64,000 bases of DNA from Rhizobium tumorigenes. GTDB taxonomy: Bacteria > Pseudomonadota > Alphaproteobacteria > Rhizobiales > Rhizobiaceae. Each line of letters starts with the position of its first letter. The stretch's first letter is position 1. The DNA lies in assembly GCF_003240565.2 (NCBI RefSeq), contig NZ_CP117255.1, forward strand, positions 2,480,001 to 2,544,000, in the 5' to 3' direction. Both the position numbers and the translations under genes were made by a program. The notes beneath the pieces were generated by a model. That model was not told where the DNA came from and ran no database searches. It saw only the letters and a list, made by a program, of their open reading frames with translations. Positions 1,987 to 9,145 of the stretch are shown piece after piece.

Positions 1987-4900
1987 ATGACTTCCATCAT
2001 CTCTTCCTTGTCAGCCACGCAGATCCAGAATCTTTCCACAGCCACGATAGCGAGCCTGAAAACCGCCGACATCGCAGCGCTGAACTCGACCCAGATCAAG
2101 GCCTTGAGCTCCACCCAGCTCGGCGCCATCACCACAGACGACATGCAGGCCTTCAGCTCGACGCAGCTGGGCAGCATTTCGGCAGCAGCCGTCGTCGGCC
2201 TTAGCGCCGCCCAGCTCGGCATTCTCTCCTCCGTGCAGGAAGCCGGACTGAGCTCGACCGCGATCGCCGCGCTGACAACCCAGCAGGTCGCCGATCTCAC
2301 CACCAGCAACGCCGTCGCGCTGACCTACGGGCAGATTGCGGCACTCGGCACGAAGATCTCGGCTCTGACCACCGATGACGTCGCTCTGCTCTCGACCGGC
2401 CAGATCAGCGCAATGACGACCGCCCAGGTCGGCGCCCTCACTTCCGACCAGCTTGGCGCGCTGACGACGACCGAAGTCGCCGCGCTGAACACGAAGCAGA
2501 TCGCAGCCCTTGAATCGAATGACATCGCAGCACTCTCGTCGGATAACATACTTGCCCTTTCCAGCGGCGCACTTGCTGCCATCACCACCAAGGCTCTCGC
2601 CGGCCTGTCCAGCGCCAATCTCGCCCTGCTCAGCTCCGACAAGATCGGTGCCCTGACGAGCGGCCAGATGGCAGCTCTTAGCACCGACCAGATCGCTGCC
2701 TTGACGACCGACCAGACCCCTGGCCTGAAGAGCTCGCAGATCGCAGCCCTTTCGACCAAGCAGATCGTCGCCCTTTCCACCGGTGATATCGCCCTGCTGA
2801 CGACCAGCCAGATCGGCGCGCTCACCACAGCCCAGGTTGGCGCCCTGACCTCCGACCAGCTCGCCGCCCTGACGACGACGGAAGTTTCCGCCCTCAGCAG
2901 CAAGCAGATCGCCGCCCTGGACTCCAGCGACATCGCGGCCCTCTCCTCGGACGATATCCTCTCCCTGTCGACCGGTGCCCTGGCTTCGATCACCACCAAG
3001 GCCATTGCCGGTCTTGCCAGCGCCAACCTCGCCCTGCTCAGCTCCGACAAGATCGGTGCCCTGACGAGCGGCCAGATGGCAGCCCTCAGCACCGACCAGA
3101 TCGCTGCCCTGACCACCGACCAGACCCCTGGCCTAAAGAGCTCGCAGATCGCAGCCCTTTCGACCAAGCAGATCGTAGCCCTCTCCACCGGTGACATCGC
3201 TCTCCTCACCACCAGCCAGATCGGTGCCCTGACCTCGGCTCAGGTCGGCGCGCTCACCTCCGACCAGCTTGGTGCCCTGACGACCACCGAAGTCGCCGCC
3301 CTCAGCAGCAAGCAGGTCGCAGCGCTGGAATCGAACGACGTCGCAGCCCTCTCCTCGGATAACATCCTGGCTCTGACCAGCGGTGCCCTGGCTGCCATCA
3401 GCACCAAGGCCATTGCCGGTCTTGCCAGCGGCAACCTCGCCCTGCTCAGCTCCGACAAGATTGGTGCCCTGACGAGCGGCCAGATGGCAGCCCTCAGCAC
3501 CGACCAGATCGCCGCACTGACCACCGACCAGACCCCTGGCCTGAAGAGCTCGCAGATCGCAGCCCTCTCCACCAAGCAGATCGTCGCGCTCTCCACCGGT
3601 GATATCGCTCTCCTCACCACCAGCCAGATCGGCGCGCTCACCACAGCCCAGGTTGGCGCCCTGACCTCCGACCAGCTCGCAGCCCTGACGACGACGGAAG
3701 TTTCCGCCCTCAGCAGCAAGCAGATCGGAGCCTTGGACTCCAGCGACATCGCGGCCCTCTCCTCGGACGATATCCTCTCCCTGTCGACCGGTGCCCTGGC
3801 TTCGATCACCACCAACGCCATTGCCGGTCTTGCCAGCGCCAACCTCGCCCTGCTCAGCTCCGACAAGATCGGTGCCCTGACGAGCGGCCAGATGGCAGCC
3901 CTCAGCACCGACCAGATCGCTGCCCTGACCACCGACCAGACCCCTGGCCTAAAGAGCTCGCAGATCGCAGCCCTTTCGACCAAGCAGATCGTAGCCCTCT
4001 CCACCGGTGACATCGCTCTCCTCACCACCAGCCAGATCGGTGCCCTGACCTCGGCTCAGGTCGGCGCGCTCACCTCCGACCAGCTTGGTGCCCTGACGAC
4101 CACCGAAGTCGCCGCCCTCAGCAGCAAGCAGGTCGCAGCGCTGGAATCGAACGACGTCGCAGCCCTCTCCTCGGATAACATCCTGGCTCTGACCAGCGGT
4201 GCCCTGGCTGCCATCAGCACCAAGGCCATTGCCGGTCTTGCCAGCGGCAACCTCGCCCTGCTCAGCTCCGACAAGATTGGTGCCCTGACGAGCGGCCAGA
4301 TGGCAGCCCTCAGCACCGACCAGATCGCCGCACTGACCACCGACCAGACCCCTGGCCTGAAGAGCTCGCAGATCGCAGCCCTCTCCACCAAGCAGATCGT
4401 CGCGCTCTCCACCGGTGATATCGCTCTCCTCACCACCAGCCAGATCGGCGCGCTCACCACAGCCCAGGTTGGCGCCCTGACCTCCGACCAGCTCGCAGCC
4501 CTGACGACGACGGAAGTTTCCGCCCTCAGCAGCAAGCAGATCGGAGCCTTGGACTCCACCGACATCGCGGCCCTCTCCTCGGACGATATCCTCGCCCTGT
4601 CGACCGGTGCCCTGGCTTCGATCACCACCAAGGCCATTGCCGGTCTTGCCAGCGCCAACCTCGCCCTGCTCAGCTCCGACAAGATCGGTGCCCTGACGAG
4701 CGGCCAGATGGCGGCCCTCAGCACCGACCAGATCGCTGCCCTGACCACCGACCAGACCCCTGGCCTAAAGAGCTCGCAGATCGCAGCCCTTTCGACCAAG
4801 CAGATCGTAGCCCTCTCCACCGGTGACATCGCTCTCCTCACCACCAGCCAGATCGGTGCCCTGACCTCGGCTCAGGTCGGCGCGCTCACCTCCGACCAGC

Positions 4901-5991
4901 TTGGTGCCCTGACGACCACCGAAGTCGCCGCCCTCAGCAGCAAGCAGGTCGCAGCGCTGGAATCGAACGACGTCGCAGCCCTCTCCTCGGATAACATCCT
5001 GGCTCTGACCAGCGGTGCCCTGGCTGCCATCAGCACCAAGGCCATTGCCGGTCTTGCCAGCGGCAACCTCGCCCTGCTCAGCTCCGACAAGATCGGTGCC
5101 CTGACGAGCGGCCAGATGGCAGCCCTCAGCACCGACCAGATCGCCGCACTGACCACCGACCAGACCCCTGGCCTGAAGAGCTCGCAGATCGCAGCCCTCT
5201 CCACCAAGCAGATCGTCGCGCTCTCCACCGGTGATATCGCTCTCCTCACCACCAGCCAGATCGGCGCGCTCACCACAGCCCAGGTTGGCGCCCTGACCTC
5301 CGACCAGCTCGCAGCCCTGACGACGACGGAAGTTTCCGCCCTCAGCAGCAAGCAGATCGGAGCCTTGGACTCCACCGACATCGCGGCCCTCTCCTCGGAC
5401 GATATCCTCGCCCTCTCGACCGGTTCGCTGGCTGCCATCACCACCAAGGCGATCGCCGGTCTTGCCAGCGAAAATCTTGCCCTCCTCAGCTCCGACAAGA
5501 TCGGTGCCCTGACGAGTGGCCAGATTGCAGCCCTCGGCACCGAGCAGATCGCCGCCTTGACGACCGATCAGACGCTTGGCCTGAAGAGCACGCAGATCGC
5601 GGCCCTGACCACCAAGCAGATCGCCGCCCTGACGACTGCGGATATCGCCCTCCTGAACAGCACGCAGCTCGGCGCCCTGAGCTCCACTCAGATCGCCGCC
5701 CTGACAACCGAACAGGTCGAAGCACTGACCTCAACGGAAGTCTCGCAGCTCAGCAGCAAGCAGATCGCGGCCTTCGGCTCTGAAGACATCGCAGTGATGT
5801 CGACGGACGACATCGCAGCCCTGACAAGCTCTGGACTGGCGGCCATCAGCACCAAGGCGCTGGCCGGTCTGTCGACGGACGACATCGCGGCGCTGAGCTC
5901 CGCCAAGCTGTCCGCCCTCACCACGGCTCAGGTCCAGGCGCTGACCACGACGCAGGTTGACGCGGTCATCGCCGCCTACAACGCAGTGTAA
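1987..5991 (+). CDS. Giant Ser/Thr-rich octapeptide-repeat protein
   Basis: This 1334-residue protein is almost entirely a degenerate octapeptide, [ST][ST]-x-[QDE]-[ILV]-x-A-[LI], repeated about 160 times (for example LTTDQIAAL, LSTKQIVAL). It has no Cys, Trp or His, very few aromatic residues, no N-terminal signal peptide and no transmembrane segment. Seventeen octapeptides form a 136-residue module, seen by the recurring DQTPGLKSSQIAAL at 408-bp spacing (DNA 2713, 3121, 3529, 3937, 4345, 4753, 5161, and a degenerate copy at 5569). Modules pair into 816-bp units. The S/T-x-x-Q/D/E pattern resembles a helix capping box, so short helices in a solenoid are possible. Function is unknown. It could be a surface or exported repeat protein, or a glycosylation substrate of the glycosyltransferase encoded next. 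Codon use looks native. Confidence 0.85.
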   Translation: MTSIISSLSATQIQNLSTATIASLKTADIAALNSTQIKALSSTQLGAITTDDMQAFSSTQLGSISAAAVVGLSAAQLGILSSVQEAGLSSTAIAALTTQQVADLTTSNAVALTYGQIAALGTKISALTTDDVALLSTGQISAMTTAQVGALTSDQLGALTTTEVAALNTKQIAALESNDIAALSSDNILALSSGALAAITTKALAGLSSANLALLSSDKIGALTSGQMAALSTDQIAALTTDQTPGLKSSQIAALSTKQIVALSTGDIALLTTSQIGALTTAQVGALTSDQLAALTTTEVSALSSKQIAALDSSDIAALSSDDILSLSTGALASITTKAIAGLASANLALLSSDKIGALTSGQMAALSTDQIAALTTDQTPGLKSSQIAALSTKQIVALSTGDIALLTTSQIGALTSAQVGALTSDQLGALTTTEVAALSSKQVAALESNDVAALSSDNILALTSGALAAISTKAIAGLASGNLALLSSDKIGALTSGQMAALSTDQIAALTTDQTPGLKSSQIAALSTKQIVALSTGDIALLTTSQIGALTTAQVGALTSDQLAALTTTEVSALSSKQIGALDSSDIAALSSDDILSLSTGALASITTNAIAGLASANLALLSSDKIGALTSGQMAALSTDQIAALTTDQTPGLKSSQIAALSTKQIVALSTGDIALLTTSQIGALTSAQVGALTSDQLGALTTTEVAALSSKQVAALESNDVAALSSDNILALTSGALAAISTKAIAGLASGNLALLSSDKIGALTSGQMAALSTDQIAALTTDQTPGLKSSQIAALSTKQIVALSTGDIALLTTSQIGALTTAQVGALTSDQLAALTTTEVSALSSKQIGALDSTDIAALSSDDILALSTGALASITTKAIAGLASANLALLSSDKIGALTSGQMAALSTDQIAALTTDQTPGLKSSQIAALSTKQIVALSTGDIALLTTSQIGALTSAQVGALTSDQLGALTTTEVAALSSKQVAALESNDVAALSSDNILALTSGALAAISTKAIAGLASGNLALLSSDKIGALTSGQMAALSTDQIAALTTDQTPGLKSSQIAALSTKQIVALSTGDIALLTTSQIGALTTAQVGALTSDQLAALTTTEVSALSSKQIGALDSTDIAALSSDDILALSTGSLAAITTKAIAGLASENLALLSSDKIGALTSGQIAALGTEQIAALTTDQTLGLKSTQIAALTTKQIAALTTADIALLNSTQLGALSSTQIAALTTEQVEALTSTEVSQLSSKQIAAFGSEDIAVMSTDDIAALTSSGLAAISTKALAGLSTDDIAALSSAKLSALTTAQVQALTTTQVDAVIAAYNAV
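2425..5688 (+). repeat. Tandem 816-bp repeat units (2 x 408 bp, built of 24-bp repeats)
   Basis: Inside the giant gene, units begin at 2425, 3241, 4057 and 4873, exactly 816 bp apart. Each is two diverged 408-bp halves of seventeen 24-bp repeats. Units 2 and 3 (3241-4056 and 4057-4872) differ at only about four bases that I can see by eye. The first and last units are more diverged. The pattern indicates tandem duplication with recent homogenisation. Confidence 0.92.
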
Positions 5992-6029
5992 TCCATACGG
6001 CGCGGCGCAGGCCGCCCCGACAAGACCAG

Positions 6030-6064
6030 GACGCCGCGCAAGAAATTGCGCGGCGTCTTCTTTT
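6030..6064 (+). terminator. Rho-independent terminator after the octapeptide-repeat gene
   Basis: A perfect 12-bp stem, GACGCCGCGCAA (6030-6041) with TTGCGCGGCGTC (6046-6057), encloses a GAAA tetraloop and is followed by TTCTTTT. It lies 38 bases after the stop codon, so the repeat gene is probably transcribed separately from the glycosyltransferase. Confidence 0.88.
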
Positions 6065-6205
6065 GTATTGCCGGCTGCAAATTCCGGTCAAGGCTAGACA
6101 AAGGCGAGCGCCAGCCCGACGCAAGCTAGTCAAGGTAGCAAGACGCAAGCGCTCTGCGCACTGGCTCACGCTTTGGCCGCCAGGCCGAATTTTCGTAGGA
6201 TCGTC

Positions 6206-8254
6206 ATGACCATCAATGTCGCATCGGCCACGGCTCAGCTCCCACTGCTCACCAATTCGCTCGAGCGCGCGCGAAATCAGCAGCTGGCCCTTGGCGACCT
6301 GTTCAACATTGCGACGATCCTCGCCAACGGCGGCCACCAGGCGCAGGCGGTCGAGCTCTACAAAGGCTGGATTGCCTATAACGACGGCAATCCGCTGCTG
6401 CATCTCGCCTATTTCAATTATGCGGTCGCGGCCAACGTGATCGGCGACCGCGCGGGCGCGATCAATGCCTTTCGTGCCTGCCTCAAGCTCGATCCCCAGT
6501 TCGGCCCGGCGCATATCAACCTTGGTCGCGTCCTCGAGGACAGCGGATTGATAAACCCCGCCGTCGAGCAGTGGCGTTCCTATGCCGAGATCACTTCCGA
6601 TATCACTGCCGACCGTCTCGGCCACCGGCTGATGACCCTGAAGCACATCGGCCGCGTGCTGGAAGGTGCCGGCAGGATGGAGGAAGCGGAAAAGGTTCTT
6701 TGGCAGGCCATGGAGCTTCAGCCCGAAAAGACCGACGCAGGCCAGCATTGGACATCGCTGCGCCAGCGCCAGTGCAAGTGGCCGGTGCTGGTCCCTTCGG
6801 AGCATGTCTCGCTTCGCCAGTTGCTGGATGCCGTCTCCCCCTTGACGCTAGGCTGCTACGCCGACGACCCGCTGTTCCAGCTTGCCAAGGCGCATCGCTA
6901 CAACAAGTCGCTGATCGGGCAGCCCGATATCGACGAGGCCACTGCCAACACCGTTCCGCGCCACAAGACAGGAACCGGCCAGCGTCTGCGCGTCGGCTAT
7001 GTCTCGTCGGACCTGCGCGACCACGCAGTCGGCTTTGCCCTCAGAGAAGTGCTGGAGCTGCATGACAAGAGCAGCGTCGAGGTCTTCGCCTACTATTGCG
7101 GTGACCGGCGCGCCAACGATGCCACGCAGGAGCGCATCAGGAACGCTGTCGATTGCTGGCGCGATATCGCCGAACTGAGCGACGCAGATGCCGCAAAGCT
7201 CATCGCCAAGGACAAGATCGACATCCTGATCGACGTCAACGGCTACACCAAGCTCGCCCGCACCAAGATCTTCGCCTATCGCCCGGCTCCGGTCGTCGTC
7301 AACTTCTGCGGTTATCCTGGCTCGCTGGCCAGCCCCTTCCATCAGTATATCATCGCCGACGAGCACATCATCCCGCCCGCCAACGAAATCTACTATACGG
7401 AAAAAGTGCTGCGTATCGCCTGCAACCAGCCCATCGACCGCAAGCGCCAGATCGACCCGCGCCCTACCCGCGCAGACGCGGGCCTGCCCGAGGATGCCTT
7501 CGTCTATGCTTGCTTCAACGGCATGCAGAAGATCACAGAAAACTGTTTCGACCGCTGGATGACGATACTGTCGGAGACACCCGGCAGCGTGCTTTGGCTG
7601 CTTGCCGACGACGACACGGTCAACCAGCGGCTTCGCGAAGTAGCCGCGAAAAGAGGCGTCGATACCGACCGCATCATCTTCGCGGCAAAGGCACCCAATC
7701 CGAAGCATCTCGCGCGTATCGGGCTGGCCGACCTGTTCCTCGATACCTTCCCCTACGGTGCGCATTCGACAGCGGCCGATGCCATTACCGTCGGATTGCC
7801 GATCCTAACCGTTTCCGGAAAGACATTTGCCTCGCGCTTCTGCGGCAGCATCGTCGCTGCCGCCGGATTGCCCGAACTAATCTGCGGCGGCCCGGACGAG
7901 TACGTCCGCCAGGCCATAGCCTTTGCCCACGATCGGGAAAGCCTGCAGGATGTCAGGGACAGGCTGCAGAGCCAGCGTGAAACGAGTGCGCTGCGCGACA
8001 TCCCCGGCCTCGCACGCCGTCTCGAGCAGCTGTTCTGGCAGATGCAAGACGAAGCTGAACGCGGCGAAGTTCCCGTGCCGGATATGCGCAACCTCGAAAT
8101 CTATTACGAAATCGGCGTCGACATCGTCCTGTCCAACGTCGAGTTCGAGGACGAAATCGCCTACCGCAACCGATACCTCGAAAAGCTTGGCCAGCTGAAC
8201 GCGAACACACCTATTCCGTTCGATCGCCGTTTGTGGACCGAACCCGCTGAATAG
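6206..8254 (+). CDS. TPR-containing OGT/SPINDLY-like glycosyltransferase (GT41-like)
   Basis: A 682-residue protein. TPR-like helices lie at about residues 30-180 (HLAYFNYAVAANVIGD, LDPQFGPAHINLGRVLED, GRMEEAEKVLWQAMEL). The catalytic part resembles bacterial O-linked GlcNAc transferase homologues: LRVGYVSSDLRDHAVG near 260-275 with the family histidine, DILIDVNGYT and RPAPVVVNFCGYPGS near 345-373, and FPYGAHSTAADAITVGLPI near 515, the nucleotide-sugar binding region. Such enzymes transfer sugar from UDP-GlcNAc or a related donor to Ser/Thr. I chose ATG 6206, preceded by AGGA; a TTG at 6173 is in frame but weaker. Its neighbours are the Ser/Thr octapeptide protein and a DUF3431-like protein, which suggests a shared glycosylation role. 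That is inference. Confidence 0.85.
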   Translation: MTINVASATAQLPLLTNSLERARNQQLALGDLFNIATILANGGHQAQAVELYKGWIAYNDGNPLLHLAYFNYAVAANVIGDRAGAINAFRACLKLDPQFGPAHINLGRVLEDSGLINPAVEQWRSYAEITSDITADRLGHRLMTLKHIGRVLEGAGRMEEAEKVLWQAMELQPEKTDAGQHWTSLRQRQCKWPVLVPSEHVSLRQLLDAVSPLTLGCYADDPLFQLAKAHRYNKSLIGQPDIDEATANTVPRHKTGTGQRLRVGYVSSDLRDHAVGFALREVLELHDKSSVEVFAYYCGDRRANDATQERIRNAVDCWRDIAELSDADAAKLIAKDKIDILIDVNGYTKLARTKIFAYRPAPVVVNFCGYPGSLASPFHQYIIADEHIIPPANEIYYTEKVLRIACNQPIDRKRQIDPRPTRADAGLPEDAFVYACFNGMQKITENCFDRWMTILSETPGSVLWLLADDDTVNQRLREVAAKRGVDTDRIIFAAKAPNPKHLARIGLADLFLDTFPYGAHSTAADAITVGLPILTVSGKTFASRFCGSIVAAAGLPELICGGPDEYVRQAIAFAHDRESLQDVRDRLQSQRETSALRDIPGLARRLEQLFWQMQDEAERGEVPVPDMRNLEIYYEIGVDIVLSNVEFEDEIAYRNRYLEKLGQLNANTPIPFDRRLWTEPAE

Positions 8255-8368
8255 CCGCCATCGGGAGAAGTGCACCGCCGGCCCCTCTCCCTCGACACCT
8301 GGCGCCCGTCATTGAACTACACTCTCGTCCAGAGCGCGTGATCGAGAGGCTTAGAGGAGGCATCTCTC

Positions 8369-9145
8369 GTGAACACCGTGATTTTGGCGCGATACAACGA
8401 ATCCCTGGACTGGATTCATCAGATCCCGGATGATTTCGACATCATCATCTACAACAAGGGCGAGAAAATCGTCGCCCCCGAAGTGCTCGATCGCGCTTTT
8501 CGCATCATCGATCGACCGAATGTCGGCCGCGAATCAGAGACCTATCTACATCACATGATGACGCAGGTGGGCAACGACCAGGACTTCACCGTCTACGCAC
8601 AGGCCGACCCGCACGCGCACAGCCCCGATTTCATCGAGCTTCTGCAGAACTGGCGCGACTGGGACGACGTGCAGCCCTTGTCGTGGTGCTGGATCGCTGA
8701 GAACAACATTCCACCGGCAGCCCTGCTGGACGATTACCAGGCGCAGCTCGGGGGACGGTTGCGCGTCCGGCCGGAGCGTTTTTCGCTCACGGCCTGGGGA
8801 GCTCCAGAATTCGTCGACGCGGGCGCCAACGGCATGGGCATGGTCTACCGCATCCTCCACGGCCTGCCGGATGGCGGCAACATCGCAGCTCACTTCCTCA
8901 GGCACTGCAAACTAGACCACATCGCCGAAAAGGCCGACCGTCACTCGCTCGGCGTCTTCTCCTACGGCGCCATCTTCGCTGCCCGAAATGCGCGTGTGGC
9001 TGCTATTCCGCCGATCTCGCTGAGGCTGGCAATCGACTTTTCAACTGCAGGTGTCGTTGCACACGGCTACATTCTCGAGCGAATGTGGATGCATATGCTG
9101 GGCGTCGATTTCATCCTGCCAAAAAATCAGCCGTCGAAAATATAG
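8369..9145 (+). CDS. DUF3431-like protein
   Basis: A 258-residue protein beginning with VILARYNESLDWI and containing NVGRESETYLHHM near residues 53-65, followed by a phrase on planned movement in an acidic stretch (QADPHAHSPDFIELL). These features match the DUF3431 family, found in bacteria and fungi beside glycan genes and thought to have a glycosyltransferase A-like fold; no activity is established. The GTG start at 8369 is supported by AGAGGAGG at 8353-8360. It lies 114 bases after the TPR glycosyltransferase on the same strand, so the two may be co-transcribed. There is no signal peptide or membrane segment. Confidence 0.7.
   Translation: MNTVILARYNESLDWIHQIPDDFDIIIYNKGEKIVAPEVLDRAFRIIDRPNVGRESETYLHHMMTQVGNDQDFTVYAQADPHAHSPDFIELLQNWRDWDDVQPLSWCWIAENNIPPAALLDDYQAQLGGRLRVRPERFSLTAWGAPEFVDAGANGMGMVYRILHGLPDGGNIAAHFLRHCKLDHIAEKADRHSLGVFSYGAIFAARNARVAAIPPISLRLAIDFSTAGVVAHGYILERMWMHMLGVDFILPKNQPSKI

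Follow-up and report, generated by a model that had tools for sequence, protein, structure and literature searches.

The plus strand of a 64,000-nucleotide stretch of the Rhizobium tumorigenes genome (the window; contig NZ_CP117255.1, positions 2,480,001 to 2,544,000) carries, at 1987-9145, genes for a long Ser/Thr-rich repeat protein, a glycosyltransferase of family GT41 and a third, variable product. Sequence comparison makes it quite probable that this locus is a dedicated cytoplasmic O-glycosylation system, in which the repeat protein would serve as the acceptor of the GT41 enzyme and would then be exported. The sequence families, the co-conservation of the pair, a position-specific thinning of hydroxyl residues in the repeat and the neighbouring nucleotide-sugar genes were observed, and from them we infer the reaction, the donor and the export.

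The repeat protein and the GT41 enzyme

The product of the repeat gene (1987-5991, start ATG, 1334 residues) matches the Pfam family PF20080 (ALTTAQ_rpt) in 46 stretches (E 2.3e-278, 898 bits against a cut-off of 26.4), which confirms as a real open reading frame the Ser/Thr octapeptide protein of the original prediction. We know of no function for PF20080, and no description of this ALTTAQ-GT41 system was found among the listed titles and abstract beginnings of an open-licence library. The octapeptide register, with the unit A-L-[ST]-[ST]-x-Q-I-x, is almost unbroken along the protein; the corresponding 24-bp unit is nested inside a higher-order tandem array found by repeat search at 2369-5772 (8.3 copies of a 408-bp unit, equal to 17 octads or 136 residues). 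Ser and Thr make up 363 of the 1334 residues (27%), there is not a single Cys, Arg, His or Trp, and one position of the register is Ser/Thr at 162 of 167 places, in agreement with the two hydroxyl residues per octapeptide noticed originally. The copy number of the repeat varies, because the very close relative G037 (sampled genomes are cited by such numbers, the window genome being G000) has a protein of 1062 residues (L042 6793-9981), exactly two 136-residue units fewer.

Residues 1-250 were modelled by AlphaFold2 from a 14-row alignment with pLDDT 94.4, and nearly every octad has a short helix. In the predicted fold the residue following A-L is the helix N-cap (Ncap) and the next one is N1, which gives the octad naming A-L-Ncap-N1-N2-Q-I. 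The best structural match of this model in a Foldseek search of PDB was mesothelin (probability 1.00, TM 0.40, 14% identity), a mammalian cell-surface protein in which short helices form a superhelix; at this low identity and TM homology is not claimed. By sequence, the protein matches HeliScrew4 (PDB 9zem_A, E 3e-18), whose related octads mostly have Pro instead of Ser/Thr at N1, so that the N1 hydroxyl is not needed for such octads; no paper was found under the name HeliScrew in the open-licence literature.

The window genome has a second ALTTAQ gene (G000:C1:1376447-1381103; L068 7448-12103), encoding 1551 residues with Ser/Thr at 66% of N1 positions, and no GT41 was seen beside it in the locus map. 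Unlinked second copies are also present in other genomes of the genus, and among 14 control genomes PF20080 was matched solely in Caulobacter vibrioides.

The GT41 gene is located at 6206-8254 and encodes 682 residues from an ATG, which stands behind TAGGA and was preferred on inspection to the TTG at 6173 given by the open reading frame list. As originally suggested, the enzyme is a tetratricopeptide repeat (TPR) glycosyltransferase of the OGT/SPINDLY type: it matches PF13844 (E 5.6e-72, 243 bits against a cut-off of 25) with TPR matches on the N-terminal side, and its best PDB relatives are human OGT (2.9e-78), XcOGT (3.3e-71) and SPINDLY (7.7e-49). The TPR segment at 6407-6730 (matches within residues 79-186 of the frame counted from 6173) would, if OGT and FlmG are a guide, recognise the substrate. 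In the alignment with XcOGT and human OGT, a His at 7022-7024 and a Lys at 7529-7531 (query residues 21 and 190) coincide with residues that we take to be the catalytic H558 and the UDP-binding K842 of the human enzyme. The HMW1C-like N-glycosyltransferase profile NF049992 gave 24.5 bits against a cut-off of 1000, and HMW1C-type structures match weakly (E 1.6e-4). The nearest named record found, the GT41 of Rhizobium sp. L51/94, is 97% identical to the window enzyme.

Co-conservation and the acceptor position

Co-conservation of the pair, a check named beforehand, was borne out. Of 60 genus genomes, 26 encode ALTTAQ proteins and 23 a close GT41 (64-100% identity), the 23 all lying within the 26 (Fisher 1e-13); the two genes are neighbours in 22 of the 23, and the contig of the remaining genome, G003, begins at its GT41. 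Among 297 genomes of the order, ALTTAQ was matched in 20, with 20 or more matches in 14, and a GT41 at E<1e-150 was found in 13 genomes (window included), all among these 14, with G320 as the exception, and in no other genome of that sample. Here the pair is adjacent on one contig in the 10 non-window genomes whose locus was mapped whole (families f11, f20, f23 and f27) and split across contigs in G195 and G353; nine further genomes, whose GT41 is weaker (best E 1.7e-111 to 3.8e-93), lack ALTTAQ. In the phylum sample of 398 genomes ALTTAQ was found in 28, and these include 13 of the 16 genomes with a GT41 above 400 bits. The family sample of 247 genomes has 41 with ALTTAQ; of the 40 besides the window genome, 23 have a close GT41 and 17 have none.

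The two genes also occur together in Pseudomonas and in alphaproteobacterial families other than Rhizobiaceae, and the 13 plasmid records with GT41 include Rhizobium anhuiense, R. lusitanum, Pseudorhizobium flavum, Shinella, Niveispirillum, Pseudoroseomonas and a Pseudomonas. Genomes differ in how the two genes are ordered and oriented, the pair being divergent in G001 and Rhizobium sp. CCGE531, enzyme-first in R. daejeonense and convergent in G841 and G754. A neighbourhood that persists through such rearrangement is stronger evidence than a single operon. In a tree of 38 linked GT41s and 16 others, the latter chosen by hand from the order and phylum hit lists, 36 of the 38 fall into one 100/100 clade, the remaining two (G686 and Pseudomonas) pair together, and all 38 group in 70% of bootstraps; the rows labelled as linked include eight from families f90 and f115 without demonstrated adjacency, one of which, G516, has no PF20080 match.

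It is very unlikely that the GT41 glycosylates other proteins, such as flagellin, and merely shares the neighbourhood with the repeat gene. GT41s with other targets do exist, since a distant GT41 (33-39% identity) is found in 59 of the 60 genus genomes with or without ALTTAQ, G035 having only a weak TPR match. Moreover, FlmG illustrates that such enzymes can glycosylate flagellin, as described in PMC7591256, the pair adjoins flagellin genes in Pseudorhizobium flavum (L176 5510-7530), and G437, G487 and G516 have a strong GT41 with no ALTTAQ match. However, no close GT41 occurs without ALTTAQ in the genus sample, nor any at E<1e-150 in the order sample, the neighbourhood outlives changes of order and strand, and Ser/Thr at the acceptor position tracks the enzyme.

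This last relation was observed by counting Ser/Thr at Ncap, N1 and N2 in octads that were identified from their hydrophobic and small residues, independently of the three counted positions, with all octads of a locus pooled. Within Rhizobiaceae (f1), N1 is Ser/Thr in 63-98% of octads (median 88; window 98) in 30 genomes with an adjacent GT41, as compared to 12-62% (median 37) in 10 ALTTAQ genomes without a close GT41, where Ala, Pro, Asp and others stand instead (Mann-Whitney p 3e-6; this and the following p-values ignore shared ancestry). The Ncap medians of 79 with the enzyme and 78 without it do not differ significantly (p 0.063), a control limited by the fact that reading frames entered only when Ncap Ser/Thr exceeded 50%, and neither do the N2 values of 21 and 19 (p 0.17). 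When all examined genomes are taken together, including other families and G320, N1 is 80 against 43 (43 and 11 genomes, p 1.2e-4); collapsed by genus, 10 and 7 groups separate with no overlap (p 1e-4), G016 and G040 from the window's genus forming two of the groups. Second, non-adjacent ALTTAQ genes in ten enzyme-bearing genus genomes have N1 at 57-81%, as expected if the GT41 also acts in trans. By this pattern, N1 is the probable acceptor site.

The test used 30 of the 46 GT41-bearing family genomes (23 from the genus and 23 of the 40), leaving out G003, G024, G036 and G048 (cut loci), G919 (no reading frame passed the filter) and 11 others, and 10 of the 20 enzyme-less ones, leaving out G008 (no octads), G848, G894 and G744 (without coordinates) and six with 1-3 matches. 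The outliers within the genus had been noticed before the test was extended to the family, and the seven enzyme-less family genomes added afterwards fit.

The same counts speak to another explanation, which we regard as very unlikely, namely that the ladder of Ser/Thr serves only structure or binding and that the GT41 is a chaperone or inactive, leaving the repeat protein unmodified. In the predicted fold Ser/Thr does cap the helices, and ALTTAQ proteins persist in enzyme-less genomes. Capping accounts for Ncap, where no significant difference was seen, but not for N1, which differs with the enzyme and is mostly Pro in the HeliScrew4 octads; in addition, the catalytic His and Lys are kept and nucleotide-sugar genes often accompany the GT41.

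Donor sugar, export and the surroundings of the pair

UDP-galactopyranose mutase is present in 23 of 23 genus genomes with the close GT41 and in 7 of 37 without it, and adjoins the pair in 14. In some other families, nucleotide-sugar dehydrogenase and/or UDP-glucuronate-decarboxylase-like genes lie by or near the GT41 in 4 of 10 mapped order loci (G123, G244, G267 and G339) as well as in Niveispirillum and Pseudoroseomonas. The label of UDP-glucuronate decarboxylase (UDP-xylose synthase) derives from a PDB match of the G339 gene and from record annotation in Pseudoroseomonas, and none of the epimerase-like neighbours of GT41 reached an NCBIfam equivalog cut-off. N-acetylhexosamine is not the best guess for the sugar, as the neighbouring genes point to others.

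The third gene (8369-9145) is a real reading frame of 258 residues, and its assignment to DUF3431 in the original prediction lies below the curated cut-off (PF11913, 13.4 bits against 25, E 0.064), PF11913 being present in some homologues of the protein. The product looks like a glycosyltransferase of GT-A fold. Its homologues occur in 5 of 60 genus genomes and adjoin the pair only in G000 and G037, and the gene was rejected as a conserved partner; it is a strain-specific occupant of the third slot. The glycoprotein system of three genes proposed originally is supported in part, by the conservation of the pair, by the retained catalytic His and Lys of the enzyme and by the tracking of N1 with it, but the third gene is not supported as a fixed member. 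The homologue in G049 (G049:C2:1864093-1864844) is split in two pieces with a TGA. In other genomes the third slot is mostly taken by the mutase and/or by a 416-residue protein, which the invariant DDD of its consensus KCDDDIVYMDL suggests, on inspection, to be a glycosyltransferase; a PDB profile search with this protein gave no match. That the cluster makes a polysaccharide, with the GT41, the mutase and GT-A enzymes building a glycan and the repeat protein as its mere carrier or binder, is very unlikely: the third-slot genes (mutase, GT-A-like fold, DDD-motif protein) would fit a longer glycan, and in the window genome a gene that appears GT2-like is found close to the unlinked mutase, but the GT41 relatives of known structure bear the names of protein glycosyltransferases and the dependence of N1 on the enzyme is left unexplained.

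No Sec-type signal was seen on inspection at the N-terminus of the repeat protein. Type I secretion genes (ABC, HlyD) occur in the cluster of the pair in six distant genomes, G686, G384 and G416 (the last two of family f90), Niveispirillum, Pseudoroseomonas and Pseudomonas; they were identified by Pfam in G384 and G416 and by record annotation for the Pseudoroseomonas pair and the Pseudomonas HlyD, and the G686 cluster additionally holds an outer-membrane efflux gene. Of the surface or signalling role originally suggested, these clusters favour a surface or secreted one. The window genome has one PrtD-type exporter above cut-off, unlinked to the pair. Rhizobial PrsD-PrsE exports unlinked substrates.

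The terminator suspected after the repeat gene is present as a hairpin at 6028-6059, with a stem of 14 pairs (9 G-C) followed by CTTTTGT; such terminator-like sites number 8 against 5.6 expected from shuffles, and this one has the longest stem among them. Upstream of the repeat gene lie a CheY-like response regulator (753-1133; CpdR-like on inspection) and tRNA-Val (1217-1291), a region that is possibly an insertion hotspot; a similar regulator is found near the enzyme-less ALTTAQ gene of G016 (L065 11315-11677). Elsewhere, the pair adjoins curlin genes in Rhizobium sp. CCGE531 (L174 16949-23301). Family f90 has giant ALTTAQ genes (G393:C4, G416:C37, G384:C2), with two tandem GT41s at most about 30 kb away from it in G393 and G416, and in Niveispirillum (L178 13998-17824) an NAD-epimerase (UDP-glucuronate-decarboxylase-like) gene is followed by two different GT41 genes, one after the other.

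Proposed mechanism and related systems

In the mechanism that we propose, the repeat protein is predicted to fold into an elongated screw whose helical turns comprise 8 residues each. The neighbouring TPR-GT41 would bind it and place a sugar on the N1 Ser/Thr of most octads, at considerably more than 100 sites per molecule, a step suggested by the co-conservation and by the lower N1 hydroxyl share where the enzyme is absent. In Rhizobiaceae the sugar would probably come from UDP-galactofuranose and be transferred either by the GT41 itself or by another transferase encoded in the third slot, and in other families UDP-xylose or UDP-glucuronate seems likelier; these proposals follow from the neighbouring nucleotide-sugar genes. 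Finally, the glycoprotein would leave by type I secretion, as suggested by the genes in the clusters of distant relatives, and act at or outside the cell surface. A broader and rather doubtful generalisation would be a widespread and so far undescribed class of hyper-glycosylated, screw-shaped exoproteins with co-evolved TPR-GT41 enzymes, one sugar per helical turn at N1, and lineage-specific donors (galactofuranose in Rhizobiaceae; xylose or glucuronate elsewhere).

Several observations weigh against the dedicated system. At the acceptor position, apart from the shared ancestry mentioned above and the Ncap comparison falling only narrowly short of significance, N1 Ser/Thr in enzyme-less genomes is reduced, not gone, and the 62% of G809 nearly touches the 63% of G714. 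In G667, despite the presence of the enzyme, the second repeat gene has N1 at 24% and N2 at 57%; a second repeat gene of R. rhizoryzae has N1 at 49%; and in G320, outside the family, N1 is 96% with no GT41 found, its repeat gene running off the contig end. In 13 enzyme-bearing genomes outside Rhizobiaceae, N1 alone is Ser/Thr in 40-78% of octads, and N1 or N2 in 76-98%; since N2 often carries a hydroxyl there, the acceptor site may shift. The repeat protein can exist without the GT41, because 20 family genomes with ALTTAQ matches (3 in the genus and 17 of the 40) had no close GT41, and conversely 3 of the 16 phylum-sample genomes with a strong GT41, the G437, G487 and G516 named above, show no ALTTAQ. 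In 9 of the 23 genus genomes, the window's among them, the mutase does not adjoin the pair and lies elsewhere at 47-49% identity, and GT41-less G006, G020, G021 and G051 have an equally similar one. No type I secretion genes were seen adjoining the pair in the maps of Rhizobium or of the order, and the hairpin separates the two genes in the window.

The closest working analogue of the proposed system is that of HMW1C in Haemophilus. There, according to PMC3983070, the adhesin is modified in the cytoplasm, before its export, by a GT41 from the same locus; the shared features of HMW1A/HMW1B/HMW1C are a large surface protein and a cytoplasmic GT41 dedicated to it in one locus, simple UDP-sugars and a subset of enzymes adjacent to adhesins. 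In contrast, the residue modified by HMW1C is Asn, an AAD fold takes the place of the TPR, and the partner export route is two-partner secretion, whereas the window enzyme belongs to a different GT41 subfamily of TPR-OGT type, with Ser/Thr octads as its putative target and type I secretion where that is linked. In Alphaproteobacteria, the closest functional analogue known to us is FlmG of Caulobacter. PMC7591256 describes it as a cytoplasmic O-glycosyltransferase of flagellins whose N-terminal domain chooses the substrate, and thus as a case of cytoplasmic O-glycosylation of an exported alphaproteobacterial protein. Its substrate is flagellin and its sugar pseudaminic acid; the likeness drawn here is one of function.

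Human OGT, XcOGT and SPINDLY share with the window enzyme the TPR and GT41 catalytic domains and the aligned catalytic His and Lys. They differ in that a single dedicated acceptor is proposed here, together with another probable donor, OGT being a general nucleocytoplasmic enzyme that uses UDP-GlcNAc, and SPY using GDP-fucose. Serine-rich repeat adhesins and the heptosylated autotransporters AIDA-I and TibA are likewise repetitive surface proteins with dedicated glycosyltransferases, but of other enzyme families, with other repeat folds and with accessory Sec or autotransporter export.

If the proposed system is real, it would give a function to PF20080 and define a dedicated clade of GT41. 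It would also constitute a natural experiment on site choice by TPR-OGT enzymes, in which a polyvalent substrate of regular build has fewer acceptor residues in genomes that lack the enzyme. Under the broader generalisation above, each molecule would be a natural ladder bearing over 100 O-glycans at regular spacing. Donor specificity within GT41 would become testable, on a scaffold with evenly spaced O-glycans, and if the lineage-specific donors are true, these would be the first GT41 enzymes known to us with a furanose or pentose donor. For plant-associated bacteria, the finding would point to a secreted glycoprotein of variable length.

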